Under the pieces are notes generated by a model that was given only the letters and a program-made list of their open reading frames with translations, was not told the DNA's origin and made no database searches. From the NCBI GenBank assembly GCA_009746045.1, contig RPFO01000050.1:1175381-1239380 (forward strand): DNA of 64,000 nucleotides. Reading direction: 5' to 3'. Both the position numbers and the translations under genes were made by a program. Of the stretch, positions 6,661 to 64,000 are shown piece by piece. Source of the stretch: Mesostigma viride. Lineage: Eukaryota; Streptophyta; Mesostigmatophyceae; Mesostigmatales; Mesostigmataceae. The first letter of the stretch is position 1, and the number at the start of each line of letters is the position of its first letter.

Positions 6661-6700
6661 GATAACTCGTGCTCCCGTTGGGGAGTCACGGAGCATTAAC
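6661..6700 (-). mobile_element. Short 3'-end fragment of half-LINE subfamily A
   Basis: The stretch CTCGTGCTCCCGTTGGGGAG, then TCACGGAGC, equals the 3' end of the subfamily A elements at 8389 and 34523, including the terminal hairpin CTCCC-GTTG-GGGAG (6672-6685). A GATG tetranucleotide run follows at 6707-6727. Confidence 0.7.
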
Positions 6701-6783
6701 CCCGCTTGATGGATGGATGGATGGATGGGAACATGCAATCCTACCCGTCTATTCTATCTATAGTTACAAACAATCCTACTGGT

Positions 6784-7102
6784 GGACTTTTCGTGATAGA
6801 CTCGGCGTGGACATGTGCTACACTAGACGTGACGGGCTCACCCCCGGGCAGCCTCCTGGTTTGTCTGTAATATGGAGGCAGATGGTGCGCAAGGATAGAT
6901 GGCAAGTAGTGATGAAGGAGACCACCCCCAAGCCTGTGGGGGCTCCGCGTGTGACCAAGTATGGCATTCATAGCGATTCGGGCCGCGGTGCCCACACCCC
7001 TGTAACTAGGACCTATAGATAGCTTATACCATCCATTCCATCCCATGTTCCCCTCCCACTGAGGACTTATGCTCACGTGACGCAGTCACGTGTCTATTAA
7101 TT
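6784..7102 (+). mobile_element. 5'-truncated LINE copy, ORF2 C-terminus plus 3' end
   Basis: The insertion is flanked by a perfect 12-bp duplication AATCCTACTGGT (6772-6783 and 7103-7114). It holds the end of the LINE polyprotein (TFRDRLGVDMCYTRRDG ... VRKDRWQV), a 3'UTR, the palindrome CACGTGACGCAGTCACGTG (7074-7092) and a TTAATTAA-type tail. It is about 95% like the copy ending at 9483. The orientation is fixed by the tail. Confidence 0.88.
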
Positions 7103-7240
7103 AATCCTACTGGTCTTTATCTAGTGTGTGCCAGATCCTAGGGGTCCTGCCTAGCATACTTCCCGCGCTTGCAAACATGGGGCTTTCCCACTGTGGCCGG
7201 GGGTGTGATTGTCCTCTATAACCTGAGCCCATGCAGTTGG

Positions 7241-7671
7241 TAATGGGACCCCCATGGATGTTGCATTAAGAATTTAGCTATGCTATGCCTATGCAGAGAG
7301 ATGCTCTCTGTCGAGAAGCCATGCCCGGCCTAGCCCTTGTATAGCCATGATGATCTTCCCCCCCATGGCATGCTCCGGCCCCCTTAGCTGGGCATATAGC
7401 GTGATAGACCATGAGGGTGCGGGTGCCCTGGTGCGCCTAGAGCAAGTGTTGCTTACATTCCACTCTTGCAGGAAGTAGCCTAGAATGTATTAAAAGCCAT
7501 ATCAAAGAGACAACCAGCGCAGGCCAGAAATCGGGAGAATCCGGACCATGGTAGCTCGAGCCTGCCGTTATCTTTTCCGCGTTTTCGAGTCGTTCCCGAA
7601 AAGCCATATGCCCCTTCTCAGGGATATGTGCTACATATTCTCCCAACGGAGTTATGTTACAATTCAATTCA
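7241..7671 (+). mobile_element. 5'-truncated half-LINE subfamily B, 3'UTR only
   Basis: A perfect 10-bp duplication ATGCAGTTGG (7231-7240 and 7672-7681) flanks a segment equal to the 3'UTR of subfamily B. It contains an internal hairpin (CAGAGAGATGCTCTCTG), the terminal hairpin CTCC-CAAC-GGAG (7640-7651) and an (AATTC)n tail. A SINE-like repeat is nested inside it. Confidence 0.88.
7503..7598 (-). mobile_element. Truncated SINE-like repeat with TSD
   Basis: A 96-bp insert starts CAAAGAGACAACCAGCGCAG and is flanked by the perfect 11-bp duplication AAAAGCCATAT (7492-7502 and 7599-7609). It lacks the half found at the other end of the 172-bp copies. Because target-primed retroposition truncates 5' ends, the retained GAGACAACC end is inferred to be the 3' end, so the sense strand is minus. 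Confidence 0.88.
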
Positions 7672-7889
7672 ATGCAGTTGGCCTTTTCCATAATCTTTTT
7701 CCAAATCACGGAGAGGCCTAGGCCCGATCTACGAGCTGCGATCCTTGAAAGTGCGGGCCTTGCATGCGGCATCTAGCATTGCTGGGCCCGTCCCACGTGA
7801 GGAGGTGCCTGCCAGGCTAGCTGAGCAGGTCGCAGCCCTGCGGAGCTGGGCCACGAGACCTCTGTCTACCTGCATGGTTGGTGCGAGCT

Positions 7890-8376
7890 AATTAAGTGCC
7901 CTACGTACTATAGTTGCAGGCGACGCTGCTTGATGGTGCTGGTGCAGATACGTGGCATGCCTAGGTACAAGCCCTAGCTTCTTGCGGCCGTGTGCGGCAT
8001 AGCCCACATGGAAAATTGACCGCAGCATGTTGGTGACCGCGCGCCGTCCAGCTTTCTGGCAAGGTCGGCTGTGAGGGTCCACTTCTCGGCCCCATAGGTA
8101 AGAACAGGAAGGACCAGGACCTCAAACAGGTCCTGTTTCTCTAGCTTGCCCAAGGGCTTTGCGCCGGACCCTGTCTTGGCGTAAAGCGTGCCAGGTGAGG
8201 GAGATACGGTGGTCCACGTCGGCCTCGCGCACCTGGTACTAAGCTACCCAGCAGCTTGACGCGGTCCCCACGATACTGGACACGAGAGCTGGCCATCAAG
8301 AAGGAAGAGGTCGGGCGGTGGCTGAATGAGCCCGACCGCCAGAGCCTCTTTATTCTTGCTGACCTCGATCGTTGAT
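7890..8376 (-). pseudogene. LINE reverse transcriptase fragment, broken
   Basis: The minus strand, in pieces of different frames, reads EVSKNKEALAVG, then LEKQDLFEVLVLPVLTYGAE and KWTLTADLARKLDGA. This is the thumb/post-palm part of a LINE RT (the YGAE-WTLT motif is typical). It resembles the + strand fragment at 8797. Frameshifts and stops break it. A half-LINE (8377-10111) has inserted into it, and a little more of it (GDTSTIEV) seems to continue at 10123. Confidence 0.7.
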
Positions 8377-8785
8377 TAATTAATTAATCGTGCTCCCGTT
8401 GGGGAGTCACGGAGCACCGAAGTGCTTTTACTCCCTGTGTGTGCACAACAGGAGAAAGGGCAGAGACCCCCATTCTCCTTCATGCCACAGCTGCAATCGG
8501 ACACGCTAAACAATCGATCCGGCAGGATCTGCGGGTGCAATATGACCCATGTGAGCATGGCATAACAAGGAGCGTGGGCAAGTAATCTGAGCATAGTCAG
8601 GACGTAGCATGGCTGTACAAGGACTAAGCTAAGGCTATGGCTGGTTGTGTACCGTGCGTTAGCGGTGCACGTGACTTCGTATGTAATTGGCACAGCTAGG
8701 CAAACATTCTAAGCATGGCTGCCGTAGCGGCAGTGACTACCAATGGATACAAGCTAGGGCTATGATGCAAGCTATTCTAGCCCGC

Positions 8786-9483
8786 CCTACCCCGGATCGT
8801 CAAGCGTGACCTCTTCAAGGTCGTCATTCTGACGATCCTGACCTACGGCGCCGAGACGTGGACACTGACGCAGGAGCTGGAGCAACGACTCGACGGCGCC
8901 GTCACCAAGATGCTGCGCAAGGCCCTTAACATCCCCTTTGGTTTGCACATTAGTAATGAGGATTTGTACGCTGATTTGCCCTATGTTTCCCACATTATTA
9001 GGCACAGGCGCCTGGGCCTATAGCCGGGCACCTGGCCCGCACAGATCAGGTAGATACATCAGATAGACTAGCTGGCACCAAGCCCGCGGGCAGCCTGGGC
9101 GAAATGTGCTCACCTGGCGTGCCCCCGGCCGCGCGCGGCAGGGCCGCCACCCGTGGACTTTTCGTGATAGACTCGGCATGGACATGTGCTACACTAGACG
9201 TGACGGGCTCACACCCGGGCAGCCTCCTGGTTTGTCTGTAATATGGAGGCAGATGGTACGCAAGGATAGATGGCAAGTAGCGATATGAAGGAGACCACCC
9301 CCAAGTCTGTGGGGGCTCCGCGTGTGACTGCGCATGACATTCATAGCAATGCGGGCCGCGATGCCCACACCCCTGTATCTAGGACCTATAGATACTTACA
9401 CCATCCATTCCATCCCATGTTCCCCTCCCACTGAGGACTTATGCTCACGTGACGCAGTCACGTGTCTATTAATTAATCAATTA
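8786..9483 (+). mobile_element. 5'-truncated LINE copy with RT C-terminus
   Basis: A perfect 12-bp duplication ATTCTAGCCCGC (8774-8785 and 9484-9495) bounds the copy. It encodes TILTYGAETWTLTQELEQRL, then DLYADLPYVSHIIRHRRLG, and after a frameshift near 9020 AGHLARTDQ and TFRDRLGMDMCYTRRDG to a stop at 9288. This is the RT C-terminus of a LINE with the usual arginine-rich end. The 3'UTR carries the palindrome CACGTGACGCAGTCACGTG (9446-9464) and a TTAATTAA tail. The clade (RTE-like or other) is not settled. Confidence 0.88.
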
Positions 9484-9495
9484 ATTCTAGCCCGC

Positions 9496-10111
9496 AGGGG
9501 GCGTCCACATCTAGATCTTGTGGTTGATCATCGAAGGTCCCCGCCCCTCCAGTACACCTTGGGCTGCTGGGGGTCCTGCTTGTGGCGGAGGTATTCCGGC
9601 CACAGGTCGCGTCGCTGCTGCTGCTGAGCGGGGGTCAGGTCGTCGTCCAGCGTCCAGGTGAGGTCGTGCAACCGCTTGCGACGAGAGAGGAACCGCTGCT
9701 TGTCCTCACGGGAGGGGAAGGTGAGAAGGACTGGTGGGGGAGCCGCCTTGTCCCGTGAGTGGGAAAGGCGGTGGCACCCACGCAGTTCTTCCTCACCTAA
9801 CAGGCCCATGAGGGTAAGGAGCTGGTCCTTGAGCTCGTCGGCAAGGGAGGTTGACGTCTCACCTGGCTTCTGGGGGAAACGACGCAGCATCACTCGGCAC
9901 TCACGGCGAGCGCGGTCTGTGGCCTCCCGTTGGTTGGCCTGGCGGTGGTCCTCCGGCCAGCTCCTGGAGCTTCGTGGCGATGGCGTCGGTGGTTGAGGCG
10001 GTCGCTGACCGCAGCAGGTCCGCATAGGAGAGCGGCGGGAGGTCGCCAGCATCCTGCCGGGGTGGCTGGGATGCGATGGTGGCCTGCTCCTCTATCTTTG
10101 GGACCTGTGTA
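9496..10111 (-). pseudogene. L1-ORF1p-like protein, subfamily A, N-terminally truncated
   Basis: The frame is open from about 10111 to the codons near 9530, where homologous copies continue to a WRGGDL end. Readable motifs are RRECRVMLRRFPQKPGE (RRM-like start), CHRLSHSRDKAAPPPVLLTF, and TWTLDDDLTPAQQQQRRDLW followed by PEYLRHK. The last matches the basic C-terminal domain of L1 ORF1p, where DDL/S then a basic R-rich helix recur. It lacks the coiled coil and N-terminus because of 5' truncation. Family assignment is by pattern only. Confidence 0.7.
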
Positions 10112-10122
10112 CGATCGTTGAT

Positions 10123-12614: not shown

Positions 12615-15600
12615 TCACGTCCGCGCACGCCGCCGCTGGTCAAAGCAGCTCCCCGGGCCGTCGGGCGCCGTCCTACCGAGCGGGGAGTTGAGCGGCGCGG
12701 CAGGGATGTCCCTCGCCTGCAGCGTGCACCGGAAGTCCTCCAGCCGCGAATGCGCCGACCGCAAGTTGTGCAGCTGGTCCGGGTCCGACCAGAGCCTCTC
12801 GGCGGCCGCCGCAGCGCGTGGCCAGATGGTGTTGAACAGGACCGAGGGGTCGGCAGTCTCCGACCACATGCAGACCTCCCCCCCGAGGACCAACGGGGCA
12901 AGCTGGGGCAGCGCCTCGGGCGCGATCCCTGCCAGGGGCTCGTTCAGGTAGAACTTCTCCCAGTGCACGTTGAGCCAGTCGAGGTACCACATGTCGCTGT
13001 TGGAGACGATAACGCGGTACCCGTTGGCGATCACGTTCAGGGGGGACGCGTTGGGCAGCCAAATCTGGACGATCGTGTTCTTGTCGAGCGACGTGCCGAA
13101 GGTGTCGAAGACCTCCTGCCAGTGGATAGGCGTCTGGCCCTCGTGGCGCACGGCCGCGCCCGCCTGGGACACGAACCCCTTGTAGATGTCGTGGGCGTTC
13201 AGCGGGGGCTCGTGCTTGGCCATCCAGTCGGTGATGGAGGGTGTCGACTGCCAGCAGTCCATGTTGACCTCGTCCCCGCCCAGGTGGAAGAAGCCGTCCT
13301 TGAACACACTCGCGGCGTCGGAGATGATCCCCCGGATGACCTGGCTGGCGAGTCCCCCGACCGGGTTGAGTGGCTCCTTGCAGTCGGCACGCGGCCAGAG
13401 CTCAGGGTAGCTGCTCGCGCACGCAACAAACGTCCACCAAGGGGAAAAAAACAAGGAAAGGGAAACAACGACCGGAATAACACAGCAGGACTGTTTTCAA
13501 TAGAGAGACGGGTATGCTTTGGGAGTGAATGGGGCAACGGGTGTAAAGACCATTAGGTTCGAGATGTATATACACACATGTACATGTCTACATGTTCGTG
13601 GTATAACAAAGGGGGGCCGGTCACAAAAGGTACGAGAGCAGGAGGCCAAGTAAGCCACACCAAAACAAGATATGTCACATCACAACATGATACGTCCCAA
13701 GAAATGTAACACCAAGATAGTAGTATGTCACACCAAAACATGTCGCGTGAGTTGGGATGAGAGGCATTTCGGGACCACAAGGGCGAGGAATGGCTACAGC
13801 AGGCAGCGACACATGTCCCAGGTGCAATGGGAGAGACATCGCGGCCGCGGGGGCATCGACTCACCCTCCATTCCCTCGAGGGTGAGAAAGGAGCGAGGGA
13901 CAGGAGCGAGGGACTATGGGGGCGTAGAGGGACAGGTTACCGCAACCCCCGATGATCAAACGAGGGATCCTGTGGACATCAATCCCATCACAGATAAGAA
14001 GCATGGCTGGAGGAACCATGTGGACATCAATCCCATCATAGATAAAAGCATGGCTGGAGGAACCATGAGGCCATCAATCCCATCACAGATAAGAAGCATG
14101 GCTGGAGGAACCATGTGGACATCAATCCCATCACAGATAAGAAGCATGGCTGGAGGAACCATGTGGACATCAATCCCATCACAGATAAGAAGCATGGCTG
14201 GAGGAACCATGAGGCCATCAATCCCATCATAGATAAGAAGCATGGCTGGAGGAACCATGAGGCCATCAATCCCATCATAGATAAGAAGCATGGCTGGAGG
14301 AACCATGTGGCCATCAATCCCATCATAGATAAAAGCATGGCTGGAGGAACCATGAGGCCATCAATCCCATCACAGATAAGAAGCATGGCTGGAGGAACCA
14401 TGTGGACATCAATCCCATCACAGATAAGAAGCATGGCTGGAGGAACCATGTGGACATCAATCCCATCACAGATAAGAAGCATGGCTGGAGGAACCATGTG
14501 GACATCAATCCCATCACAGATAAGAAGCATGGCTGGAGGAACCATGAGGCCATCAATCCCATCATAGATAAGAAGCATGGCTGGAGGAACCATGTGGACA
14601 TCAATCCCATCATAGATAAGAAGCATGGCTGGAGGAACCATGTGGCCATCAATCCCATCATAGATAAGAAGCATGGCTGGAGGAACCATGTGGCCATCAA
14701 TCCCATCATAGATAAGAAGCATGGCTGGAGGAACCATGAGGCCATCAATCCCATCATAGATAAGAAGCATGGCTGGAGGAACCATGTGGCCATCAATCCC
14801 ATCACAGATAAGAAGCATGGCTGGAGGAACCATGTGGCCATCAATCCCATCATAGATAAGAAGCATGGCTGGAGGAACCATGTGGCCATCAATCCCATCA
14901 CAGATAAGAAGCATGGCTGGAGGAACCATGAGGCCATCAATCCCATCATAGATAAGAAGCATGGCTGGAGGAACCATGTGGACATCAATCCCATCACAGA
15001 TAAGAAGCATGGCTGGAGGAACCATGTGGCCATCAATCCCATCACAGATAAGAAGCATGGCTGGAGGAACCATGTGGCCATCAATCCCATCACAGATAAG
15101 AAGCATGGCTGGAGGAACCATGTGGACATCAATCCCATCATAGATAAGAAGCATGGCTAGAGGAACCATGTGGACATCAATCCCATCCTGGAGAGGGCAT
15201 GGCTGGAGGAACCATGTGGACATCAATCCCATCATAGACAAAAGCATGGCTGGAGGAACCATGTGGCCATCAATCCCATCATAGATAAGAAGCATGGCTG
15301 GAGGAACCATGAGGCCATCAATCCCATCATAGATAAGAAGCATGGCTGGAGGAACCATGAGGCCATCAATCCCATCATAGATAAGAAGCATGGCTAGAGG
15401 AACCATGTGGCCATCAATCCCATCATAGATAAGAAGCATGGCTAGAGGAACCATGTGGACATCAATCCCATCCTGGAGAGGGCATCACACAGCAGACAAG
15501 TGCAGGTGATGCGAGAGACGAGCGATTCGCGAGGCCAGCGCGCCAAGGACCATGTCAGCTGCCGGGCTTTGCGAGAGTCCCGTGTCCCACCTGGTGCGCA

Positions 15601-19906: not shown

Positions 19907-22900
19907 ATGCAGCAGAGAAGGGTTACGTGCATGAATTCACTTATAATTTACTTAGTTGTTGTAGGAAGTACGCTCTTCTACTCGGTGAATTGTAGTATGA
20001 CAGGGGTGATTCGGAATTCCACTGTGGGATGTGCCCCCTCTGAGCTTCCAGGCTATTCCTGTTCGTTGGTAGTCAGGGAAGGCCGACTAAAGGTGCGTGC
20101 AATGCTCTATGCGTCACACGATGCTGGCATTTCTTGTACCGGATGATCGTGAATTTATCTTGCCTCCTTCTATCGTATACAATCCTTTCTGCTTCTTCAA
20201 AACGGCGTCAGGCCACTGATATACGATATTGGTTTGTATTTCTTGCATGTCGTAATGCGTTCAACTGCACCAGGTTCATTGGGAGACGTTCGCCGACATG
20301 GAAACGGATACGGTTCGCATTGCTGCGGAGACTCCCGGACTCGTTGGCTACTTGGGAGTAGGCTGGAGCGCTTCAGGTTCAATGATCCCAGGCTATGCTG
20401 TGATTGGCTGGTGGGTTAACCCGTGACCAAATATATGGTATGGTCCATATGTATGGTGATTCTTTTATTTACGATCCTTCCTCTTTTTCTGGCTTTTTTT
20501 ATGTTGCATGCCGATCTCATCTCCGTTGTTCATCATTCTCACTCTGTATATATATATTCTATATAATTACATTCTTGCACGTCGCTCATGGTTCGTGCAT
20601 CCTATGTGCACGCTTGTCTTGTCTGCTCTTGGCACGATAAACTCAAAACTTCACCGTTTTTTATGCCTGTACCTTCCGTTCATCAAAGGGGGCGAAATAA
20701 ACTAGTTCAGCTGGCCTATCAGGTCTTGACCCCAAGCACCCATCGATGAGTGGGCAGTATCCCACACCAGCATGCGTGGATAGAGAAATAGAAAATAAAA
20801 CAACCACCATTCTTTTTTCAAAGACCTAATGGGAAGAAAGTTCTTGCTCCACACTCCCTGCGGCGGTATCACCCACACCTACACACCTTCAATATCCCCT
20901 TATTCCCCTATAAAGCTGCCCCTACTTCCTCCCTGTACTCCGTTCCCTCTTGCTCCTCTCTCCCCCTGTAATCCTCCACTTTTTTCCTGCTTCCTATTTT
21001 CTTCTTCCTGCTTCCTTCGTCCTTCTCCCCTCTGTTCTAAAATTGAGAGATTTATTTCTACTTTACGCAATCCCGCATCATCTAATTACATATTCTCCTT
21101 CCCCCCCCCTCCCCATGGATTCCTCCCCACGGTGTTTCGCAACCTCCCGACAGAGCCACCGTTGCTCTCTTTAATGTATCACAAAGCCAGGTTCCTCAAT
21201 TCCAGTTTCCAAATCCCTTCCTTCTTTTGTCGCTATCTCATCCCTTAAATTGCAATGCCAACGCCCCCATTTCCAACCCTCCTTCTCCTCCCTCTTTCGC
21301 TCACCCTTCCCCCTCCACCCCCTGACCTCCCCTACTCTCTCCCCCTACCCCTACCCCTACCCCCTACCCCCCTCTCCTCTTCCCCCCCCCCCTCCCCTCT
21401 CCCCCCCCCCCCCCCTGGCCCTCGATCCAGGCTGGATGAACCCCGCCCCGACACCGCCGTCGTGAAGGGCTACTTCCTCAAGGCCAAGAAGACGTCAGGC
21501 GTGATCGAGACGAGTGACATCCCCTTTGTCAACCGCACCATAAGCTACGTGGACGGGGTGACACGCCTGGAGGTGGCCCTCCGCTACATGCCCAACGGCG
21601 GCCGGTCATGCCCTTTGTGCCGCCTGCGCGCAAGCGGCGACACCAAGTTCAACTACGCATACACCTTCTCCTACATCACTCCCCGACTCACGGTACGCGC
21701 TTTTTGGCTTTTGGCTGAACACTCGGGTCTAAGGTAGCACCGTGCAGAGTAGTGTAGTGGGGACACCCAGTTGAAGTACGCATACACGTTCTCCTACATC
21801 ACTCCACACATCATGGTGGGCCTTGAAGCGGGCAAAGTGACCCCTATCTAGCCGGCATTACCTGGCAACGCCTGGCGATACCTGGCATTACCTGGAATCA
21901 CTTGGCATTACCACGTTGTTGGCTTTTTTATCAGCATGGTCTTGGTGGGTGCATCCGTGCGCGCACCCACCGCATGTGGTTGGGAGCACACATGGGTGGG
22001 TTTCGGACCACCTGCGCCCTGCGCTCGTTCTTATTGTCGCACACCATGCCATGTGGTTGTGCATCAGGGTCGGCGGCCGGCCCTCGTCGTAAGTCCTTGA
22101 GATGTTGACAGTTGTATAGTACCGCACGTCAAGGTGAATCGGGAGGTTAGCTACGCGTATGCTTTTCCATGACCGGCAAGCCACGAGCGTACATGTCTGA
22201 GCCCAAATTCAGTCGGTCTACTTGCATCAGATGCGTCTTTTCAAGACGCATCTGCTAGCATAATCGGTTACGGCTGTAACGCAGTATTTTGGCAAATGCC
22301 ACCAAAACGCAGCCTCAACAAACAAATCGAGCTGCTGCCGGCATTTCCATTCGACAGCAGCTCGTGCGACATCAACTCCTGCGCACGCCAACCCTCTCGC
22401 GCTGATCCCAGCTCTGCCCCCGGGTCTGCCTCCCTCGACGCAATGCTCTACACCAAATTCGTCGCCCATTCCCAAGAAAACCCGAACTTCCCATACCCAA
22501 TGAAATGTCCGCCGCTCCGGCGCCAGCCAGCGGGATTTTCGCGTCTTGGAAATCTTTATGCTCACGAAGGAACAACGTGCCGATGTTATCAAGTTCCTAG
22601 CCCGCCATGACGAACTTTTTCTGCCTACTCCTGGTGACAAGGTCACCAAGTCCAACAGGGAATGGCTGCTTCAAGAACCGGAGGCGTACTTGAAGGCAGT
22701 CATCATGTGCAGCTACCTGCGCTGCGATGCCCAGCAGGACTTCACCCCGATAGGCTATGCTGGCCTCAAGAGCCTCCTGCACGAGCGCAGACGGGCAGCC
22801 CCAGCAGCTGCAGCATCCTCGCAGAGCGGCACCTCCCCCAGCACGGACTCTATCCGAGCTGCAGTGGCGGAGCACCTGGCGCCGATGCCTGAGCAGCTTG

Positions 22901-25900
22901 CCGCCCTGAATGCGCCTGACGGCCCACTCAACGCTCTCGTGGCCAAGGTCAACAACATTGAAGCCAGAGTCGCACTTAAGCTCCAGCCTCAGTTTACTGC
23001 TACGCGAGAGCACATTGTCACCAAAGTGTCCGAGGCCACAGCCACTGTGACCACCCGCCTTAAGCAGGTGGAAGGCCGAGTCGGCCAAGGCACCGTGAGA
23101 CTTGAGGCAGTTGCTACCAAGGTAGACGCCCTGGCCACGCACGTCCCCGAGATCGCCGAGCGAACGGCCACCATCGCCGCCCAACCTGCCAGTAGGGCTA
23201 GTGATGACCCCTCAACTCGCGCCTCCTGGGCGGACCTACTCTTGAGCCAGGCAACCTCTACCACCACCGCCATCACCACCAAGCTCCAGGAGCTGGAAGA
23301 CACGTGCCGCGAGGCCGCAGACCGCGACCGTCGCCGCTGCCGGGTCATCCACAGGCGCTTCGACATGCAGCCGGGGGAGACCCCAGACTCTCCTCTCGAC
23401 GAGCTGAAGAAACAGCTCTTGGCGCGCATGGAGCTGCCAGGTGCGACACTGCAGGGCGCCTACCGCCTGCCCCATCCACGGGACAAGGCTGGGCCCCCTC
23501 CAGTGGTCCTCACCTTCAGCGACATCACAGCCCGAGTTCGGTTCCTCTCTCGCCGCAAGAAGCTGGTGGACACCTCCTGGTCGCTTGACGACGACCTGAC
23601 GCCAGCCCAGCAGTAGCAACGCCGTGACCAGTGGCCCGACTACATCCGCCACAAGTCCAGCCCCAAGAAGGCCCAAGTGTACTGGCGGGGCGGGGACCTT
23701 TACGTCAACAAGAAACTATGGAAGCCCCTTCGGGCTCCCCCGGGATTGAGCACTCAAGCTAGTTGTCTAGATGGGGGCAATCGATGATGGGATAGCTTAG
23801 GCATTACAGCACTTGAAATGATGTTAGCGCCCAGCGTTATAGTACCTTCAATTAGCTCTGGCACCTTGTGGCCATCAGCTTGCGCCTTAGCCGACGTCTT
23901 GAGCGGCCCACCTCACCTTTGTAGCATAAGCTATGCGTCAGCCTACCTATTGTATTGCACTGGTTGTATTGCACCCACAGTGTTGTGCCCCGGCATGCAC
24001 CCTGCTGTGGAGAGAGCGCTCTGTGGCCTGCCCACTTGCGGCAGTGAGAGAAGCTAGGGCGCCCTCCCTCCTTCTCGCTGTGTATATAGGGTTGAAGGTT
24101 CGTTTACTCTGTGTTGGCACCCACGTGACGCAGTCACGTGCTTATAAATTAATTAATGCTTTTCCATGCATTACTACATCTAATGTAAACATCTCAAAAG
24201 GCTCAAGTCCCTGTGGTCCTGCTCCCCCTGTCCCCCTTATTCTCTCACCCTCTCCCACTATTTCCCTCCCCCCTACTGACTGTCAGTCCTCCCCCGCCCC
24301 CCCTTATTTGTCCCTCCCCCCCCACTTTCCCTTCCCCCCCCCGCAGATGCACTCCCACGACGGCCACTTCACCCTCGACTTCCAGCACGCGCTCCCCCCC
24401 TCCCCCCGCGGCTCCCCCCGGCCCCCCCACGTCGGTCTTCACGCGCGGCGCCCACATGTTCGACAACGACGCAGTCGCCCACGGGCTCGCCATGATCGCG
24501 GCCTTCGCGCTCATGTTCCCCTTGGCCGTCTCGCTGGCTGCGAACGCGAGGCAAGGGGGCGGGCTGCTCAAGCAGGCGGCGCCGATCCGGGGCGTCTCTG
24601 CCTGGTTCCAGTGGCACCGCGTGCTGAACAGCATCGGCGCCGGGTTTGTGGTCGTGGGCCTCGCGATCGCGATCTCAGAGTTTGACATCGGGCGCATCTT
24701 CAGCGAGCACGCGCGGGTCAACCGGGTGCGTCTGATGATAGACATGGTGTTGTTCTCTAGCTAACAAGAATGACACAAACAGATGCAATAGCAAGCACGC
24801 ATGCAAGGATGTACCGCCCAGTAAAGAGATGTTTGTCATTTTTTTACAAATGCAATAATCGTGAGAATCGTGAGAAGAATTGTGAGGAACGGCCGGGTAA
24901 GAAATGTGGTACCGATAAAGAAATGTGGACCTGTGTTTGTCTCTTGATTTAATTTGGTCGCAAATTGCGAGGATCAACCGGGCGCGTCAGTAAGGTAGGA
25001 ATAGGGTTTAACTGGTGTGTGTGGCTGCTTTTTAATGCGGGGAAACGCCTGTTGCCTCATATACCTCACTTTGCACTCCCGATGGTCATCCGTGGCCCGA
25101 TGCTCGTACTCGCGTTTGTCTCCCTGTACACCCCACGCTGCGCGCTTTGAGTATTTCTCGTGTGCGTGTCGTTGGGCGCTGGTGGTCCGCATGTTCTGCT
25201 GCCTGGTTGTGGGGTGTGCCTAGTTGTCTGCGTGCCTGGTGGTGGGTGTGCCTGGTGGTGGGTGTGCCTGGTGGTGGGTGTGCCTGGTGGTGGGTGTCCC
25301 TGGTTGCCTGCGTGCCTGACTGGTTGCGGGTCTGGTTGTGTGCCTGTCTGGTTGCGTGTCTGGTCGTGTGGACTTTGGCATGCTGTCACCGGCAACTCCT
25401 CTTCCTTGTCCTCCCATCTCCCCCCCCCCCCCCCGCCCGCACAGCTCCACGCGGTGTGCGGCATCTTCTTCGGTTCCCTGGCACTGCTCAACCTGCTGGT
25501 GGGGTTGCTACGGCCGGCCAAGGAGAGCCTGTCACGGCCGAGGTGGTGCGTCTGCTACATCTTTCTCCTATCTTGGAAGACGCGTTGCGTCTGCTCTGTT
25601 TTTTTAAGGGGGGGGGGGAACTGGGGTGTCTGGAAAAGGGAAGGGCAACGTGTCCCAAGGGTGAACCCCGGTTTTGGGACCCGTTTGCCCAAAGCTAAAA
25701 TGGGACTGCGCGTCCAAGAAAGTCACCTGTTTGATCTGGTGGTTGCCGTGCAAGTTTGAAGGAAACACTGTGTTGGGGTGTGTGAAGGAAACACTGTTGG
25801 GGTGTGAAGAGGAGGTTTGCGTAGGCGAGGTGCAGGGGAGGCTTGTCTTCAGGGTGGAGGACAGGAAGAAACGGGTCTCAATCAAGCAAGTTCGCATATT

Positions 25901-27622: not shown

Positions 27623-27840
27623 GCACACATTAATTAATATGCACGTGACTGCGTCACGTGGGTGCCAATGTACAGAGTAAAGGAACCTTCAACCCTATAC
27701 ACACAGCGAGGAGGGAGGGCGCCCTAGCTTCTCTCACTGCCGCAAGTAGGCAGGCCACAGAGGGCTCTCTCCACAGCATGGTGCCGGGGCGCAACACTGT
27801 GAGTGCAATACAACCCGAGTGCAATACCAAATTAATTTAG
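27623..27840 (-). mobile_element. 3'-end fragment of half-LINE C
   Basis: After an ATTAATTAAT tail come CACGTGACTGCGTCACGTG (27642-27660), GGTGCCAATGTACAGAGTAA and further sequence that matches, inverted, the 3'UTR at 23950-24155. It is 5'-truncated. No clear target duplication was found. Confidence 0.75.
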
Positions 27841-28081
27841 ACCCTGTTGGATAGGAGACCCCCGGCCGGGCACCATGGGCGCTGACAAAAAGAACTCCTG
27901 ACCCATACTCCAACATCGCCTGTGCCTCACCACATCCCAGCAATGACCTTTCCTTTATTCCATTTTTGTTTTTGTTATTATTATTACTCTTTACTTTAAA
28001 TAAAAAAATAATTAATTAATAGACACGTGACTGCGTCACGTGAGCATAAGTCCTCAGTGGGAGGGAAACATGGGATGGAAT

Positions 28082-28405
28082 TGAATTGAATTGAATTGAA
28101 TTGTAACATAACTCCGTTGGGAGTATATGTAGCACATAGCCCAGAGAAGGGGCATATGGCCTATCATACATTCTAAGCTACTTCCTGCAAGGGTGGGAAT
28201 GTAAACAACACTTGCTCTAGGTGCACTAGGGCACCTGCACCACCCAGAGTTTCAGGCAACACCCAGCGAAGGGGAGCCTGTCATAGGTGGGGAAGATCAT
28301 CATGGCTATACAAGAGCTAGGACATGGCTTCTCTACAGAGAGCATCTCTCTGCATGGCATAGAATGGCGAAATTCTTAATGCAACATCCATGGGGGTCCC
28401 GTTAT
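28082..28405 (-). mobile_element. 5'-truncated half-LINE B 3'UTR inside LINE relic
   Basis: A perfect 12-bp duplication ATGGGATGGAAT (28070-28081 and 28406-28417) bounds it. It starts (in + reading) with a TTGAA-repeat tail, then the terminal hairpin ACTCC-GTTG-GGAGT (28111-28124) and the inner hairpin CAGAGAGCATCTCTCTG. Confidence 0.9.
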
Positions 28406-29244
28406 ATGGGATGGAATGGATGGTGTAAGCTATCTAGGTCCTAGTTACAGGGTTGTGGGCACCGCGGCCCGAATCGCTGTGAATGCCATACGCGGTCACA
28501 CGCGGAGCCCCCACAGATTTGGGGGTGGTCTCCTTCATCACTACTTGCCATCGATCCTTGCGTACCATCTCCCCCCATATTACAGACAAACCAGGAGGCT
28601 GCCCGGGTGTGAGCCCGTCACGTCTAGTGTAGCACATGTCCATGCCGAGTCTATCACGAAAAGTCCACGGGTGGCGGCCCTGCCGCGCGAGGCCTGGGGC
28701 ACGCCAGCTGAGGACATAACGCGCAGGCTGGGCGGACTAATTGGTGCCAGCTAGTCTATCTGATGTGTCTAGCGCGAGCACGGCGCCTGGCGCATAACAT
28801 CATTAATTAATTAATTATCAACATCACTCCGTTGGGAGTAGATGTAGCACATAGCCCTGAGAAGGGGCATATGGCTTTTAATACATCTAGGCTACTTCAT
28901 GCAAGGGTGGGAATGTAAGCTACCCCTGCTCTAGGTGCACCAGGGCACCTGCACCCTCATGGTCTATCACGCTATGCCCGGGTAAGGGGGGAGCATGCCT
29001 GTGAGGGAGGAAGATCATCATGGCTATACAAGAGCTAGGACATGGCTGCTCGACAGAGAGCATCTCTCTGCATGGCATAGCATGGCTAAATTCTTAATGC
29101 AACATCCATGGGGGTCCCATTATAGACAAAGCATGGCTAAATGTTGAAGGCATCATCCATGGGGGCCATTATGGGCGCACATGCGCGTGGGCCACATACT
29201 AGGCTAAGCCTTACTAATCTACACTACTGGTATATATATTCCTA

Positions 29245-29658
29245 GTATAAGCTCCTGGCCTACGGCGACGTCGGGCACCATCGTGTGGTGCCCTTTGTCC
29301 TGGAGGAGTTTGGGGCCATGGGGCCCCTGACCTCCGCCTTCTTCAAGGAGTGTTGCCGGCTCCGGGAGGACCGGCTGGACCTGGAGGGCCAGCGGGCCCC
29401 ATGGTCGGCGCGGACCTGGACGTCATATTGGCGTCAGCGCTTGTCGGTGGCGCTGACTCGGGCCATGGCTGACATCATGCTCCGCCGTACGCGGGCTGAT
29501 TTTGCGGTGCAGCAGGGCTATTAGGTTCCTCCCGTTAGGCGTTTCCATTGGTCTTATCGTAGTATAGAGCTTTGACATGGCTCTGTATATAGGTTTATAG
29601 CTGGGCGTTTGCTTTGGTTTGAGTGATTTCACTCTGCTGTAAGTAATTATATTTTTAA
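29245..29658 (+). mobile_element. 5'-truncated LINE tail copy 1, C-terminal protein end
   Basis: It is bounded by TATATATATTCCTA (29231-29244 and 29659-29672). It encodes YGDVGHHRVVPFVLEEFGAM, then FFKECCRLREDRLDLEGQRA, and WYWRQRLSVAL-like helices (TSYWRQRLSVALTRAMADIM) to a stop at 29522. The 3'UTR of about 130 bp ends TAATTATATTTTTAA. This matches the extreme C-terminus of algal LINE-type RT proteins that follows a PD-(D/E)xK-like domain. Confidence 0.75.
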
Positions 29659-29672
29659 TATATATATTCCTA

Positions 29673-30142
29673 TGTTGTATTTGCACACTGTCCTCCTGAC
29701 GGTGGTGCTCGCCATGATTCGGTCGGTTTTCCCCCACGCGAACATCCGGTCCGAGGATGCGGATGGCGCTGCCTTCTATTCCCCCAACCACCGGCCTGAC
29801 ATCGTGGTGCTGGACTTTGAGGGGGGTGGCCGGCATCTGCTTATTGACGTTTCGGTGGCGCGGCCCTTGGCTCTTAGCCACGTGGCTGGGGCCTCCCTCA
29901 CGGCAGGTTACACGGCGGACCGGGCGGAGCGGGCCAAGCTCCTGGCCTACGGCGACGTCGGGCACCATCGTGTGGTGCCCTTTGTCCTGGAGGAGTTTGG
30001 GGCCATGGGTTCCTCCCGTTAGGCGTTTCCATTGGTCTTATCGTAGTATAGAGCTTTGACATGGCTCTGTATATAGGTTTATAGCTGGGCGTTTGCTTTG
30101 GTTTGAGTGATTTCACTCTGCTGTAAGTAATTATATTTTTAA
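29673..30142 (+). mobile_element. LINE tail copy 2, with PD-(D/E)xK-like domain
   Basis: It sits between the second and third copies of the same target (29659-29672 and 30143-30154, the latter 12 bp). It encodes HRPDIVVLDFEGGGRHLLID, then VSVARPLALSHVAGASLTAG, then YGDVGHHRVVPFVLEEFGAM. The PD...hhhDVSV pattern resembles a PD-(D/E)xK nuclease fold. The part after GAMG that copy 1 keeps is deleted, and the shared 3'UTR follows at once. Confidence 0.75.
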
Positions 30143-30151
30143 TATATATTC

Positions 30152-31512
30152 CTAGTCTGAGGTGGCAGGAGGGGGCTGCCAGGGCTTGTGGTCAACGTGG
30201 ATGACCGCCCCCCTCCAGTATACCGGCTTCCCCCTTGCGCTCTGCCGGAGCTGAAGGTAGGTCGGCCATAGCTCGCGTCGCCGCTGTTGCTGGGCCAGGG
30301 TCAAGTCGTCGTCCAGCGTGAAGCGAGTCTCCGAGAGCTTCTTGCGGCATTTAAGGAACGCCAGCTTGTCCGCCATGTACTTAAAGGTGAGGAGCACGGG
30401 TGCCGGGCCAGCCTTCCCCCGCGCGCGGGGGAGGCGGACAGCCGACATGTCCAGCTCACCAGTGAGTAACATGGGGGCAAGAATGGCGCGCTTCAAGAAG
30501 GCTCGTGGAGGTCTCACCTGCCTGCTGGTCGAAGTGCTTGACGATGACATTGTGGCTGCGCCGGGCGATGTCGGCTTCCTCGCGAAGGTCGAGGGCTTGT
30601 TGCTTGAGTTGTGCCGAGATGGTGGAGGTGGTGGAGGTGGTGTGTTGCTTAAGCAAGTCCGCCCAGGTGGAGGGAGCATCGCCGACCGGGCCAGCAGGAG
30701 CCGGCTGGGCGGCGATGTCCTTCACCGCCTGGGCGGTGAGGCCGGCGCGGTGTCATGCAAGCTCTCAAGGGCGTTGGCGGTGGCTTGAAGGCGTTGGTCG
30801 AGGTCGAGGAGCTGGGCTTTGATGTCGGCAGTGGAGGCGGAAATGGCAGTGGAGGTGGAGGCGGCGGCGGTGGAAATGTGAGGAAGTTCAGCAGTCAGCG
30901 TGCCGCCGATTGCTGCTATGTCGGCAGCAAGGGGGGTCACGTGCTGCTGAAAGGCTTCCGTCGGTGAGGATGGAGCGGAGGGTGGGGACGGAAAGGGGTG
31001 AAGCCCAGATCTCGGCGTCAGAGCGCTGGAGAAGGGAGTTGAGGATGGCGTGCTGGAGATGGGGGCGGAAGCTGCCGATGAGCCCGTAGATGTTGGCCCA
31101 GCGGCTGCCGTCCGGGGCGAGGAGGCGATTGGTGGAGTAGAGATGGAGGCACAGGTCGTTAAGCGAAGCGTAATCCCCGAAGAAGATGCAGCGCATAGCA
31201 TCGGTCGGAGAAATGGTGGCCCAGTCGTAATCTGCGACCTTGAAAGGCCGGGGACGAAAGCTCGGTTCTGTGTATTGGGGGCGTGAAGACCCTCGATCCT
31301 GTGTCGTCGGCTGGGCGGGTGCGCTTGGGGTCAGGCGATGCAGATGGCGAGGCGTTAAGCCCGGGGGGTTGCGGGACGACCACCAGTGCACGACTAGTGT
31401 CATCGCCGCCTGCCGGACCTGATGGCGAAGCTGCAGCCGGAGCTGCAGACGTATTGTCATTGCCGAGCGCGGCCGCCAGGCTGCGTTGCGTCGGGGCGCG
31501 TTTGTTCGCCAT
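30152..31512 (-). pseudogene. L1-ORF1p-like protein of half-LINE B, frameshifted
   Basis: It starts MANKRAPTQRSLAAALGNDN and ends KPVYWRGAVIHVDHKPWQPP. Segments, in different frames because of several indels, are a Ser/Pro/Ala-rich N-terminus; YDWATISPTDAMRCIFFGDY; a heptad region (TADIKAQLLDLDQRLQATAN); the RRM-like part (RSHNVIVKHFDQQAGE ... VRLPRARGKAGPAPVLLTF); and the C-terminal part (FTLDDDLTLAQQQRRRELWP). Two other B copies (32880 and 52858) share this order. Confidence 0.75.
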
Positions 31513-31670
31513 ATATTGCGTTTTAGATTCGGAAAATTATATCAGCATGTGCGTCTTAGAAAGACGAAGCGATAGTGATATTCACGGCTAAATTCGGTGC
31601 TCAAACGTGAAAGTTATGAGCTCCGACAGCCATGGCTACCTCGTGGCCGGAATTTCGTGGGGCTTAACAT

Positions 31671-32095
31671 AATCCACTACAATAATAAACAGGTACGGCG
31701 ACAGGACGCAACCCTGCCAGACGCCGGTCTGCAGTGGGCATGGCGGGGTAAAGCCGTGTTGAGTGCGCACCGAAGTGGTCGACCCCTCATACAGCGTGCG
31801 GATGACGGTAATCAGGGGAGTGGGGACGCAAGCGCGAGCAAGTACAGCCCATAGAGCGTCCCAGAGGACAGAATCAAAAGTCTTGATGAAGTCGACGAAG
31901 ATCAGGATGGCGGGAAACTCACCAGGTTGCAGGAGCTAGAGCGATTTCCTCAAAGAGGCGACGCGCGACGAAGATGGCCATGACGGTGTCAGTTGCGGCC
32001 AGGACGAAAGCCCATTTGACTTTCCCCTAGGTGACGGTCGAGAGCAGAACAAAGGCCGCGGTTGCTCAAGGATCATGCGCATGAACTGATTTATA
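31671..32095 (-). pseudogene. LINE reverse transcriptase palm fragment
   Basis: The minus strand reads QMGFRPGRN, then after a frameshift TDTVMAIFVARRLFEEIALA, then EFPAILIFVDFIKTFDSVLW and GVWQGCVLSPYLFIIVVDYV. These are RT motifs 1-4 of LINEs: GFRPGR, FVDF.K.FDSV (catalytic Asp) and G(V)RQGC.LSP.LF, here with Trp for Arg. The YADD box is missing because the half-LINE at 31661 interrupts the gene. Frameshifts and a stop show it is dead. Confidence 0.82.
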
Positions 32096-32121: not shown

Positions 32122-32466
32122 GGAGTGTCTAGTGGTGAGCACCGTTGCTGCGATCGCTCTCCCACCATTTACGAGGAAATACCCGCAAATGGAAAACCAC
32201 TGAAAAGGTCAAGCTAGTGACAGTCATTACGTTAGCCATGCCATGATTCCAAACGTCCAAGAACTGCACACGGTGCAAAGGCAAAATTCCAGAGGACAGC
32301 ACTTTCGCATGTGCGGCGGGAACCAAAAGCCCGCGTATGCAAGAAAACATTGTGTTGCTGCAGCGACACGACGATGTGGACAACGAATCCAGTGCCAAGC
32401 TCAGAACGGCTGCAAAGGAGATCTGGCATCACAGGGTTCAGATGTGCCGAGATACTGCGCGATCCA
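32122..32466. repeat. 345-bp dispersed repeat, copy 1, with a conserved frame
   Basis: From GGGAGTGTCTAGTGGTGAGC to GCGATCCA the segment is over 90% identical to 36309-36652. On the + strand one frame reads NCTRCKGKIPEDSTFACAAG, then MQENIVL and KEIWHHRVQM, with a CxxC; on the minus strand another long frame exists. I do not recognise either. It could be a mobile repeat or a copied host exon. Confidence 0.6.
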
Positions 32467-32879
32467 GCCGGTCCACGACCTGTTTGTAGAGCCTGTGCCA
32501 AAGGGCAGCACCGAACAGATGTGGGTGACAGTTGCAGTGACAATAGGTTGCTGCCTAACGGGCCGGTCGTTTCAGAGCTCAGCGCTGCAGCTAGCCAGGC
32601 TGCGTTTTTCGTGGTGCGTTTGCTGACTGGCCATTATTTTGCGTAATAGCTTCGGGCTTGTCACAATACTGCGTAATACAGATTATAGTAGCAGATGCAC
32701 CTTGATGAAGTCACTCTCTGACGAGCCACGAGCCACGAGGTAGCCATGGCTGACGGCGGAGCTCATAACTTTCACGTTTGAGCACGTTTTAGCCGTGAAT
32801 ATCACAATCGACGCGTCTTTCTACGACGCATATGCTGATATAATTTTCCGAAGCTATTACGCAATATATTGACGAGCAA

Positions 32880-34295
32880 ATGCTCCTCGACGCAACGTGC
32901 AGCCTGGCGGCTGCGCTCGGCAATGAAAATACGTCTGCAGCTCCAGCTGCAGCTTCGCGCCATCAGGGCCGTCCGGAAGGCAGTGGTGACACTAGCCGCG
33001 CACTGGTGGTCGCCCCGAACCCTCCCGGGCTTTCCTCGCCCTCTGCATCGCCTGACCCAAAGCGCAGTCGCCCAGGCGAACCTGGCTGATCTGAGCGTGA
33101 TTTTGACGTTGATCGGCTCTTTACCACCTTCGACGTCAACAGGCCTGCCTTTTTCGACATGCCACCCATCAAGATACTGGAGCTCGTGTTTTATGGGTCA
33201 CGCGCCTCACTGCTGGCCCTGTGCCAGCAACTCAATTTCAACAGTCAACACCCACTTTTTCCTCAACGGAGCTGACGGCCGGTTTTCCCACCGCGTATCT
33301 GACGCCCCTTCTTCGACCAACCAGGCGCTGGCTGGTCTCGCCCCCGCCTTCAGCTCGCAGCTCTCTTTACCCTCACTAAGCGTTCGGCCGAGGAGCAGTT
33401 CTGCACCCCGCCCCCATTACCGAATCCACCTTCGTCCACCACCTCCACGCCGCCCTCTCACAGCACGTGACGCCCATTGCTGCATCGATGTGGCAGCTGT
33501 GGGTCGCACGCTGGCTGCTGAGCTCCCCACCATCCCCACCGCCACCGCCGCGCTCCTCGCCTCCACCCCCCCCTCCCCCTCCGCCTCCACCGACTCCATC
33601 ACCGCCCAGCTCCGCAACATCGACCAGCGCCTTTTAAAGGACAATGCCATCGCTCCTCCAGAACACCGCAGGCCTCACCGCCCAGGCAGAGAAGGACATT
33701 GCAGCCAAGCCAGCCCCATGGCTGGCCTGGCCGGCGATGCTCCTCCCATCACGACCTGGGCGGACATGCTTAAGCAGCACACCACCTCCACCACCTCCGC
33801 CGTCGCAGCCCAGCTCCAGCGGCAGACGCTTGACCTCCGCGAGGAGGCCGAGCTCGCCAAGCGCAGCCTCAACGCCATACTCAAGAACTTCGACATGGAG
33901 GAAGGTGAGAATTCCGAGAAGCTTGCACGTGCGTTTGAGAGCAAAATCCTTGATCGCGTGGGCCTTTTGGGTGAGATTAAGCTGACCGCCCACCGCCTTC
34001 CCCGCGCGCGGGGTAAGGCAGGGGCGCTCCCGCTTCTTCTCATCTTTGAGAGCCCATCGGACAAGATTCGTTTCTCAGACGCGCCAAGCGGCTCGAGAAC
34101 ACTCCCTTCACCGTGGGCGATGACTTGACCCTGGCGCAGCAACAACGGCGACGGGAGCTATGGCCGACCTACCTCCAGCTCCGGCAGACCAAGGCGGGGC
34201 AGCCGGTGTACTGGAAGGGGGCGGCCATCTACGTCGGCCACAAGCCCTGGCATGCGATCCCCGCGGCCCCCGTGACTCCAGACACCCCAGCTTAG
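32880..34295 (+). pseudogene. L1-ORF1p-like protein of half-LINE B, plus copy
   Basis: It has the same layout as the minus copy: N-terminus SLAAALGNENTSAAPAAAS and PSASPDPKRSRPGE; a middle domain (FDMPPIKILELVFYGSRASL); a heptad region near 33500-33640; EEAELAKRSLNAILKNFDME; AHRLPRARGKAGALPLLLIF; and TLAQQQRRRELWPTYLQLRQ to PVYWKGAAIYVGHKPW, with the stop at 34293. Several frameshifts separate these segments. Confidence 0.75.
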
Positions 34296-34500
34296 GGGAA
34301 TACAGCAGTAGTAGTGTAGAATAGATAGTTAGACCGTGGCCATGTACATGTAAGCCTCCTACAGGCTCTATACCAGCTGATGCACGAGTATTATTTAGCC
34401 ATGTACATGTGTGCCTATGATGTGCCACACTCCAGATGATGTCTAGCTTTATCTAGTTATGCTGTGCCCATGCCTGCAGAGAGCTGCTCTCTGCTGAGAT

Positions 34501-35338
34501 TAATTAATTAATTAATTAAACTCGTGCTCCCGTTGGGGAGTCACGGAGCACCGAAGTGCTTTTAATCCCTGTGTGTGCACTACAGGAGAAAGGGCAGAGA
34601 CCCCCAGTCTCCTTCATGCCAAAGGCATGCCACAGCTGCAATCGGGCGCGGCTAGCTAAAAGGACAGGCTAACGATCCGGCAAACTGTGGGTGCAATAAG
34701 ACCCATGTGAGCATGTCATAGCAAGGAGCGTGGGCAAGTAATCTGAACATAGCCAGGGCGTAGCATGGCTGTACTAGAACTAGGCTAAGGCTATGGCTGG
34801 TTGTGTACCGTGCGTTGGCGGCACGTGACTAGGTTTGTTGGCACAGCTAGGCAAACATTCTAGGCATGGCTGCCTTAGCGACAGTGACTCCAATGGTTAC
34901 AAGCTAGGGCTATTGCTATTCTAGCCCGCTGGGGGCGTCCACATCTTGTGGTTGATCATCAGGTCCCCGCCCCTCCAGTACACCTTGGGCTTCTGGGGGT
35001 CCTGCTTATGGCGGAGGTATTCCGGCCACAGGTCGCGTCGCTGCTGTTGCTGAGCGGGGGTTAGGTCGTCATCCAGCGTCCAGGTGAGGTCGTGCAACCG
35101 CTTGCGACGAGAGAGGAACCGCTGCTTATCCTCAGGGGAGAGGAAGGTGAGCAGGACTGGTGGGGTGGCCGCCTTGTCCCGTGAGTGGGGAAGGCGGTGG
35201 CACCCACGCAGTTCTACCTCACCTACCAGGCCCATGAGGGTAAGAAGCTGTTTCTTGATCTCGTCAGCAAGGGAGGTTGACGTCTCACCTGGCTTCTGGG
35301 GGAAGCGACGTAGCACCACTCGGCACTCGCGGCGAGCG
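34501..35338 (-). mobile_element. Half-LINE subfamily A, 5'-truncated, nested
   Basis: A perfect 12-bp duplication CTCTGCTGAGAT (34489-34500 and 35339-35350) bounds it. On the minus strand: the last 139 codons of the ORF1-like frame (35338-34921, RRECRVVLRRFPQKPGE ... VYWRGGDLMINHKMW), a 3'UTR of about 395 bp, hairpin CTCCC-CAAC-GGGAG (34540-34527) and an ATTA tail. The frame is intact over this length, unlike older copies. Confidence 0.92.
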
Positions 35339-35609
35339 CTCTGCTGAGATGCCACGCTCTAGCTTTTGTATCTATAGCCATGCTGATCTCCCCCCCCATG
35401 ACAGGCTCCCCCTTAGCTGGGCATAGCTTGATAGATCATGGGGCTGCAGGTGCCCTGGGGCACCTATAGCAAGTGTCGTTTACATTCCCACCCTTGTAGG
35501 AAGTAGCTTAGAATGTATTATAGGCCATACGCCCCTTCTCAAGGGCTATGTGCTACATATACTCCCAACGGAGTTATGTTACAATTCAATTCAATTCAAT
35601 GCACCTTGA

Positions 35610-36060
35610 AAAGACGCATCGGTTGCAAGTGATCTGACTGAATTTGGGGCTCAGATGTCAGCCATGCCGCTCGTGGCTCGTGGCTCGTGGCTAAAGTAAT
35701 AATTGGATCGTGCTGAAATGCAGATAAGATAACAGCACGGGCTTGAGCTAGCGCCGGCATATGGTCCAGATTCTCCAGATTTCTGGCCGGCCTGCGCTGG
35801 TACGTACGTTTTCTCTTGACATCGACACGTCAGCGCCCCATGCAACTCATGGCGCCCCATGTACAAAATAACAGGCAGGGACCCATGTCATGTAGATTGA
35901 TCAGGTGGATCAAGAGCATCTTAGTTGAGCACTTTCAAATTGGTCATATTGAAGCCAACTCCATGTGGTCCGGATTCTCCCGATTTCTGGCCTGTGCTGG
36001 TCGTCGCCTTGATATTGAAGCCAACTGTTTATTGAATACATACAATGTGGACAGAACTGC
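35610..36060 (-). mobile_element. 5' end of an older half-LINE plus SINE-like remnants
   Basis: Read on the minus strand, 35695-35610 gives GCCACGAGCCACGAG, then CTGAGCCCCAAATTCAGTC and GATGCGTCTTTTCAAG, the 5'UTR of the A/C type up to its hairpin, where the B element inserted. Diverged minus copies of the SINE-like repeat follow at about 35738-35812 and 35966-36018. Confidence 0.65.
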
Positions 36061-36067
36061 CTGGTAT

Positions 36068-36239
36068 CAAAGAGACAACCAGCGCAGGCCAGAAATCGGG
36101 AGAATCCGGACCATGGTAGCTCGAGCCTGCCGTTATCTTTTCCGCGTTTTCGAGTCGTTCAGGATGATGAAGATGAATGGTGATGGAAATGTGTATCCTT
36201 GTGCATTGAAATTATGGCTGGCTTACGTGTGGAGCGACT
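36068..36239 (-). mobile_element. 172-bp SINE-like repeat, complete copy
   Basis: It starts CAAAGAGACAACCAGCGCAG and ends CTTACGTGTGGAGCGACT. It is base-for-base identical to the reverse complement of 52286-52457. The sense strand is inferred to be minus because truncated copies keep the GAGACAACC end. No clear TSD is seen at this copy. It carries no ORF that I take as real and no convincing pol III boxes. Confidence 0.85.
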
Positions 36240-36308
36240 AGATGACCTAGACGGTGGGGCCGGAAACAGCATGCTTGATCAGGGCGTGTGTTTCTAGCCT
36301 AACTGGCC

Positions 36309-36652
36309 GGGAGTGTCTAGTGGTGAGCACCATTGCTGCGATCGCTCTCCCACCATTTACGAGGAAATACCCGCAAATGGAAAACCACTGAAAAGGTCTA
36401 GCTAGTCAGTCATCACGTTAGCCATGCCATGATTCCAAACGTCCAAGAACTGCACACGGTGCAAAGGCAAAAAGCCGGAGGACAGCACTTTCAAATGTGC
36501 GGCGGGAACCAAAAGCCCGCGGATGCCAGAAAACATCGTGTTGCGGCAGCGACGCGACGATGTGGACAACGAATCCAGTGCCAAGCTCGGAACGGCCGCA
36601 AAGGAGATCTGGCATCACAGGGTTCAGATGTGCGGAGATACTATGCGATCCA
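36309..36652. repeat. 345-bp dispersed repeat, copy 2
   Basis: Partner of 32122-32466. The + frame reads NCTRCKGKKPEDSTFKCAAG and continues open beyond the repeat to 36921 (LKTLEYLLERPWEYQYQIYL). That makes an origin from a longer coding sequence possible, but the protein is not recognised. Confidence 0.6.
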
Positions 36653-37200: not shown

Positions 37201-44642
<7,442 letters not shown>

Positions 44643-63712: not shown

Positions 63713-63720
63713 CCCCCCCC

Positions 63721-63994: not shown

Positions 63995-64000
63995 CACCCA

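Follow-up and report, generated by a model that had tools for sequence, protein, structure and literature searches.

Young ORF1-only retroposons of the streptophyte alga Mesostigma viride share 3' hairpins with LINEs and are probably HAL1-like

The 64-kb stretch of Mesostigma viride DNA analysed here (contig RPFO01000050.1, positions 1,175,381 to 1,239,380; hereafter the window) holds a group of L1-type retroposons that carry one open reading frame (ORF), an ORF1, and no reverse transcriptase (RT). We call them half-LINEs, after the long interspersed nuclear elements (LINEs) they resemble. All five elements named in the original prediction (A1, A2, A2', B and C) were present in the window, and several subfamilies exist, as it proposed; the A1, A2 and B/C types have 3' hairpins of class I, IIa and IIb, respectively. 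That inventory had overlooked an ORF1 copy, E, and pieces of RT-bearing LINEs (LINE D and LINE G) whose hairpins are common with those of the half-LINEs. The half-LINE features of the window are as follows.

22172-24155, plus strand: half-LINE A1, with 5' untranslated region (UTR), ORF1 remains (22296-23745), 3'UTR, hairpin and ATTA tail (AT-rich)
22159-22171 (5') and 24156-24168 (3'): target duplication of A1, ATGCTTTTCCATG, perfect, 13 bp
about 22228-22254, plus strand: 5'UTR hairpin of A1, from RNA folding
24122-24140, plus strand: class I 3' hairpin of A1, CACGTGACGCAGTCACGTG
27629-27827, minus strand: 3' end of a 5'-truncated A1-type copy, with class I hairpin
60423-60654, minus strand: 3' end of a 5'-truncated A1-type copy, its hairpin altered at two places
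8377-10111, minus strand: half-LINE A2, 5'-truncated, ORF1 part 9484-10111, class IIa hairpin 8391-8416
8366-8376 and 10112-10122: target duplication of A2, 11 bp, perfect
34501-35335, minus strand: half-LINE A2', 5'-truncated, nested in C, class IIa hairpin 34525-34550
28801-31657, minus strand: half-LINE B, ORF1 with several frameshifts, class IIb hairpin 28820-28845
32706-35598, plus strand: half-LINE C, ORF1 broken, class IIb hairpin 35555-35580, holding A2'
about 52863-54110, plus strand: ORF1 copy E, B-like (86% to B)
7241-7671, plus strand: 5'-truncated class IIb 3' end (B/C type), perfect 10-bp duplication
28082-28405, minus strand: 5'-truncated class IIb 3' end (B/C type) within LINE D, perfect 12-bp duplication
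40927-41206, minus strand: diverged class IIb 3' end, perfect 10-bp duplication
35600-35712, minus strand: 5'UTR of remnant element X, interrupted where C inserted and resuming at about 32694 downwards

The predicted elements thus exist, but the lengths given for B, C and A2 were inflated by later inserts: B is interrupted by two plus-strand tails of an unrelated LINE (about 29240-30149), A2 by the LINE D fragment at 8786-9483, and C by the reverse copy A2'. Perfect target duplications had been claimed for four of the five, and these were found again as the 13 bp of A1, the 11 bp of A2, the 11 bp of C and a perfect run of 12 within the 15-bp duplication of A2', which has one mismatch. Among 400 boundary pairs drawn at random, 1% reached the score of the A1 duplication and 7.75% that of B (13 bp, two mismatches). 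A score of at least 10 was obtained at 9 of 16 window places (A1, A2, A2', C, two LINE D ends and three further 3' ends); B, the two A1-type ends and the pairing of remnant X with LINE D scored 7, LINE G 6 and a 5'-truncated reading of LINE D 4. For copy E a target duplication was looked for and not found (score 3). None of the window copies has an intact ORF1; that of A1, which is 88% identical (tblastn) to an intact 482-aa gene model of Mesostigma viride, has one frameshift and two in-frame stops. A known RNA family at the element ends was rejected, Rfam giving no window match at gathering scores and two chance-level matches in 22100-24200, and two scans of viral contigs confirmed no relatives.

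The genome assembly (439.9 Mb) was searched at the DNA level with A1. Scoring covered 40 of 3753 first-look candidates and listed 42 matches, and the counts that follow are lower bounds. The 41 matches besides the window's own led to 39 fetched stretches with one main copy each, for which copy L009 served as reference. These 39 copies are 99.5-99.95% identical to L009, A1 being an older relative at 93%. The 482-aa ORF1 was found in 30 of the 39 copies (L035 deviates at residues 12-19), and an identical 482-aa protein (P0002, a Mesostigma viride gene model) is encoded by 26 of the 39; among the nine without this ORF1, eight are 5'-truncated and one, L033, is broken. The prediction that the protein is kept needs amending for the window, where every frame is broken. 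Graded 5' truncation was seen in 13 of the 39 copies, target duplications scoring at least 10 in 33 of them, compared to 1.5% of 800 mismatched pairings, and the CACGTGACGCAGTCACGTG hairpin followed by an ATTA-type tail in all 39. In each of the 38 copies for which it was measured, the ORF1 stop lies 370 nt from the hairpin; a residue change in the search string caused the remaining copy to be missed. This constant distance leaves no room for an RT and rules out one hidden between ORF1 and the 3' end, and none was found there in the 39 copies. The outcome that would have refuted the original prediction, an RT in most copies or an ORF1 that is not open, did not appear among the copies fetched. 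The 3' flanks are of 36 distinct kinds, with three locus pairs having common flanks, and the mobile copies of the A1 family measure about 2.0 kb. Given the 39 near-identical copies, the duplications in 33 of them and the constant 370 nt, the ORF1-only form is what moves, as had been predicted, and its RNA is copied by target-primed reverse transcription.

The extreme 5' end varies in many full-length young copies among L010-L029: the number of CCACGAG repeats differs, and some copies carry extra leaders such as ..CTGGCACG. Limited literature searches, which prove no absence, met no half-LINEs of Mesostigma; section 2.3 of PMC6947507, on Mesostigma repeats, gives repeat classes and long terminal repeat (LTR) elements and does not name half-LINEs.

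The ORF1 protein (ORF1p) is predicted to be L1-ORF1p-like, with an RNA recognition motif (RRM) followed by a C-terminal domain (CTD). This assignment, already made in the original prediction, is supported by the modelled RRM-CTD fold, whose best PDB match was human L1 ORF1p, above all other entries. A curated family of L1 ORF1p was listed neither by Pfam at E <= 1 nor by PDB sequence searches, a result that a diverged sequence would give as well. Four homologues of the protein were found, three of them Mesostigma viride gene models (90%, 55% and 54% identity) and one a protein labelled Prorocentrum lima (P0003), whose sequence is that of the last 287 residues of P0002; this entry is probably due to contamination or mislabelling, or alternatively is a transcript. 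Between two copies with a common RT-less 3' half, the ORF1 dN/dS was 0.25 (interval 0.09-0.63), below 1 as expected from the prediction, and its upper bound lay below 1 in 11 of 15 pairs of ORF1 copies, which supports purifying selection on ORF1.

Two LINEs of the window carry the hairpins of these half-LINEs, LINE D that of A1 and LINE G that of A2.

8786-9483, plus strand: 5'-truncated LINE D, whose ORF2 C-terminus continues into the class I hairpin (9446-9464) and an ATTA tail
8774-8785 and 9484-9495: duplication of this LINE D copy within A2, perfect, 12 bp
6784-7102, plus strand: LINE D 3' end, class I hairpin 7074-7092, perfect 12-bp duplication
31662-32066, minus strand: LINE D RT fragment (RVT_1, E 2.3e-10), interrupted by half-LINE B
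28406-28800, ending at about 28005, minus strand: LINE D resumed beyond B, class I hairpin 28024-28042
6650-8370, minus strand: LINE G, ORF2 C-terminus 7990-8363, 3'UTR, class IIa hairpin 6670-6695

LINE D is a two-ORF L1-type LINE with ORF1, ORF2 and RT, present in interspersed copies. The solved chains nearest to the RT fragment at 31662-32066 were R2 and human L1 ORF2p. In a genome search with the LINE D fragment from A2 (40 of 1402 candidates scored, the window's own included), the exact class I hairpin stood at the expected place in 27 of 29 further loci, the exceptions being L067 and L071. On contig C1593, a joined, 5'-truncated locus encodes 452 aa in ORF1 and 1010 aa in ORF2, with RVT_1 at E 4.5e-25, and motifs seen by eye mark an endonuclease-like start one frameshift away, where Pfam reports no family. 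In five other copies the identity to that of C1593 is 98.95% over 5.2 kb, 99.0% over 4.1 kb, 99.2% over 3.8 kb, 97.4% over 2.5 kb and 99.7% over 0.9 kb, so that LINE D is young too. An arrangement in tandem or at a fixed target, suspected from an antisense frame, was ruled out by flank comparison, since the flanks differ across the 29 loci, with L060/L061 and one partial pair as exceptions. By their order and orientation, remnant X and LINE D (28005-32066, minus strand) may form a single two-ORF element, but the duplication is at chance level, as 7.75% of 400 draws reach its score of 7. At the LINE D locus on contig C1491 (L080 and L053 joined) a 5'UTR tandem of at least two units was seen by eye at about 1330-1650, which resembles monomeric L1 promoters.

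The window copy of LINE G is interrupted by later inserts at 6784-7102 and 7241-7671. Elsewhere in the genome, loci L074, L063 and L065 have a G-type ORF2 C-terminus (91%, 85% and 59% identity) followed by the G 3'UTR and the class IIa hairpin, which is exact in L074, has one mismatch in L063 and is mismatched at 5 of 26 positions in L065.

The 19-nt class I hairpin is identical in A1 and LINE D; 31-32 terminal nucleotides agree at 90%, and the remaining 3'UTR is unrelated. In the same way, A2 and A2' match LINE G exactly over 29 and 32 terminal nucleotides, with unrelated sequence upstream. The class IIb hairpin of B and C keeps its pairing through two double changes. We found also that a part of the 5'UTR is common to A1, B, C, remnant X and LINE D, the motif shared by half-LINEs and LINE D covering 55-70 nt at 71-78%. 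Besides this motif, a young half-LINE and LINE D are alike in DNA only over the 3'-terminal 39 nt (92%) and a stretch of 34 nt (82%). At the protein level the two ORF1s are relatives, with 26.9% identity (E 2.8e-9) and 26-38% in the RRM part. The half-LINEs are therefore not recent products, or simple derivatives, of ORF2 deletion from LINE D, the one LINE that this statement covers.

Taken together, the sequences suggest, with good probability, that the half-LINEs are HAL1-like L1-type retroposons which use their own ORF1p in cis and the ORF2p of a LINE in trans through a common 3' hairpin. The transcript would consist of the 5'UTR motif common with LINE D, ORF1, 3'UTR, hairpin and ATTA tail. 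Newly made ORF1p would package its own RNA in cis, as the selection on ORF1 suggests, and the ORF2p of an autonomous LINE would recognise the 3' hairpin in trans, for which the identity of the hairpins argues. A1 would use LINE D through the class I hairpin and A2 LINE G through the class IIa hairpin. The RNA would then be copied into the nick by target-primed reverse transcription, a process that explains the target duplications, the 5' truncation and the variable ATTA tails, all of which were observed.

Several points weigh against this proposal. Mobilisation in trans by a LINE ORF2p is itself inferred from sequence. Pfam, NCBIfam and PDB sequence searches name no family for the half-LINE ORF1p, and the full-length model of this protein is poor, with a pLDDT (predicted local distance difference test) of 45; long helices at 209-294 and 304-352 of this low-confidence model may form a coiled coil before the RRM. 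The dN/dS is compatible with 1 in 4 of the 15 pairs, including B/E with 0.80 (0.51-1.28). LINE G of the window was reconstructed across its two inserts, with the ORF2 end seen and the full element not seen. Its 3' region and that of LINE D gave no significant alignment (score 23, below a shuffle maximum of 30), so that their homology as DNA was rejected. The covariation of the class IIb hairpin is weak, being equalled by 55 of 500 shuffles over four distinct sequences, and an RT partner for this hairpin was not found among the sequences examined.

This missing B/C partner, and the presence in the window of further LINEs such as the one with tails inside B, would also fit an RT donor other than LINE D and LINE G, the common hairpin being merely an RNA-end or processing signal. 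We regard such a donor as improbable, since two distinct hairpins each pair one half-LINE subfamily with one RT-bearing LINE, LINE D is young too, and ATTA tails are found on both half-LINE and LINE D. Spread of the copies by segmental duplication or misassembly is hardly credible in view of the 36 distinct 3' flanks, the target duplications in 33 of 39 copies and the graded 5' truncation, even though three pairs of copies have common flanks and section 2.3 of PMC6947507 reports many segmental duplications in the Mesostigma genome.

The origin of the half-LINEs is a separate matter from their mobility. They may be an old, self-standing ORF1-only lineage that adopted the 3' hairpin of a partner at least twice (A1 from LINE D, A2 from LINE G) and kept its own diverged ORF1p in cis, a history to which we give a little less than an even chance. 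A two-ORF LINE with a half-LINE-type ORF1 could instead have lost its ORF2, perhaps repeatedly, as in a plain HAL1-type origin, so that the ends were inherited and not adopted; the mobility mechanism would be unchanged. The 5'UTR motif and 3' hairpin common to half-LINEs and LINE D and the relatedness of their ORF1 proteins speak for such a loss, as does the repeated emergence of HAL1 in mammals reported in PMC5753468. Against it stand the unrelated 3'UTR bodies and a DNA likeness confined to 39 nt, 34 nt and the 5'UTR motif, and we consider this origin a serious possibility that nevertheless falls short of even.

Mammalian HAL1s raise the question why a non-autonomous element keeps ORF1. With very young half-LINEs beside complete LINEs of the same hairpin, the cis-action of ORF1p becomes directly testable, as do the use of the hairpin by an L1-type ORF2p and the specificity for a partner (class I versus IIa), outside animals and in an early-diverging streptophyte.

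Other repeats were noted in the window. The two plus-strand LINE tails at 29240-30149 inside B are 5'-truncated and have a C-terminal frame (PDIVVL..DVSVARPL) reminiscent of a PD-(D/E)XK-like nuclease, to which Pfam assigns no family. A repeat of about 340 bp at 32126-32466 and 36318-36652 (93% over 246 bp) starts with GGGAGTGTCTAGTGGTGAGCACC, which we take to be reminiscent of the head of a tRNA-derived short interspersed nuclear element (SINE). A short dispersed repeat with GAGCCTGCCGTTATCTT occurs at 7500-7595, 36065-36243, 52282-52460 and 52599-52694 (98-179 bp, partly 100% identical), with one copy within a class IIb 3' end, and is possibly a miniature inverted-repeat transposable element. 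Long tandem arrays lie at 1-300, 13950-15590, 38225-38930 and 62850-64000, with units of 10, 48, 14 and 8 bp.

Among known systems, HAL1 stands nearest. PMC5753468 describes it as derived from L1, non-autonomous, coding for ORF1p alone and of several origins in mammals, and in PMC3627910 the lasting coding capacity of guinea pig HAL1 is read as a need for ORF1p in cis with ORF2p in trans. Both HAL1 and the half-LINEs are ORF1-only L1-type retroposons without RT in which the coding capacity is kept. They differ in host, mammals for HAL1 and a streptophyte alga for the half-LINEs, and in the 3' end, a poly-A in HAL1 and a hairpin with ATTA in Mesostigma. Moreover, the half-LINE ORF1 is 26-38% identical to that of LINE D, next to an unrelated 3'UTR, and two half-LINE subfamilies carry two different LINE hairpins. 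HeT-A of Drosophila likewise belongs to the non-LTR elements and codes for an ORF1/Gag but not for an RT; it is telomere-directed and has a zinc-knuckle Gag, whereas the half-LINEs lie at dispersed sites and have an L1-type RRM-CTD protein. Some SINEs have a 3' tail in common with their partner LINE (stringent-type recognition), and the half-LINEs resemble them in a short 3' hairpin common with a LINE below unrelated upstream sequence. SINEs are, however, short and non-coding, whereas the hairpin of the half-LINEs sits on an RNA of about 2.0 kb with a selected ORF1. With two-ORF L1-type LINEs, of which LINE D has ORF1 and ORF2 with RT, they have the fold of L1 ORF1p in common, and they differ in having no ORF2. 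The half-LINEs would thus work as HAL1 does; because host, 3' end and divergence from the LINE examined differ, we name them HAL1-like and not HAL1.

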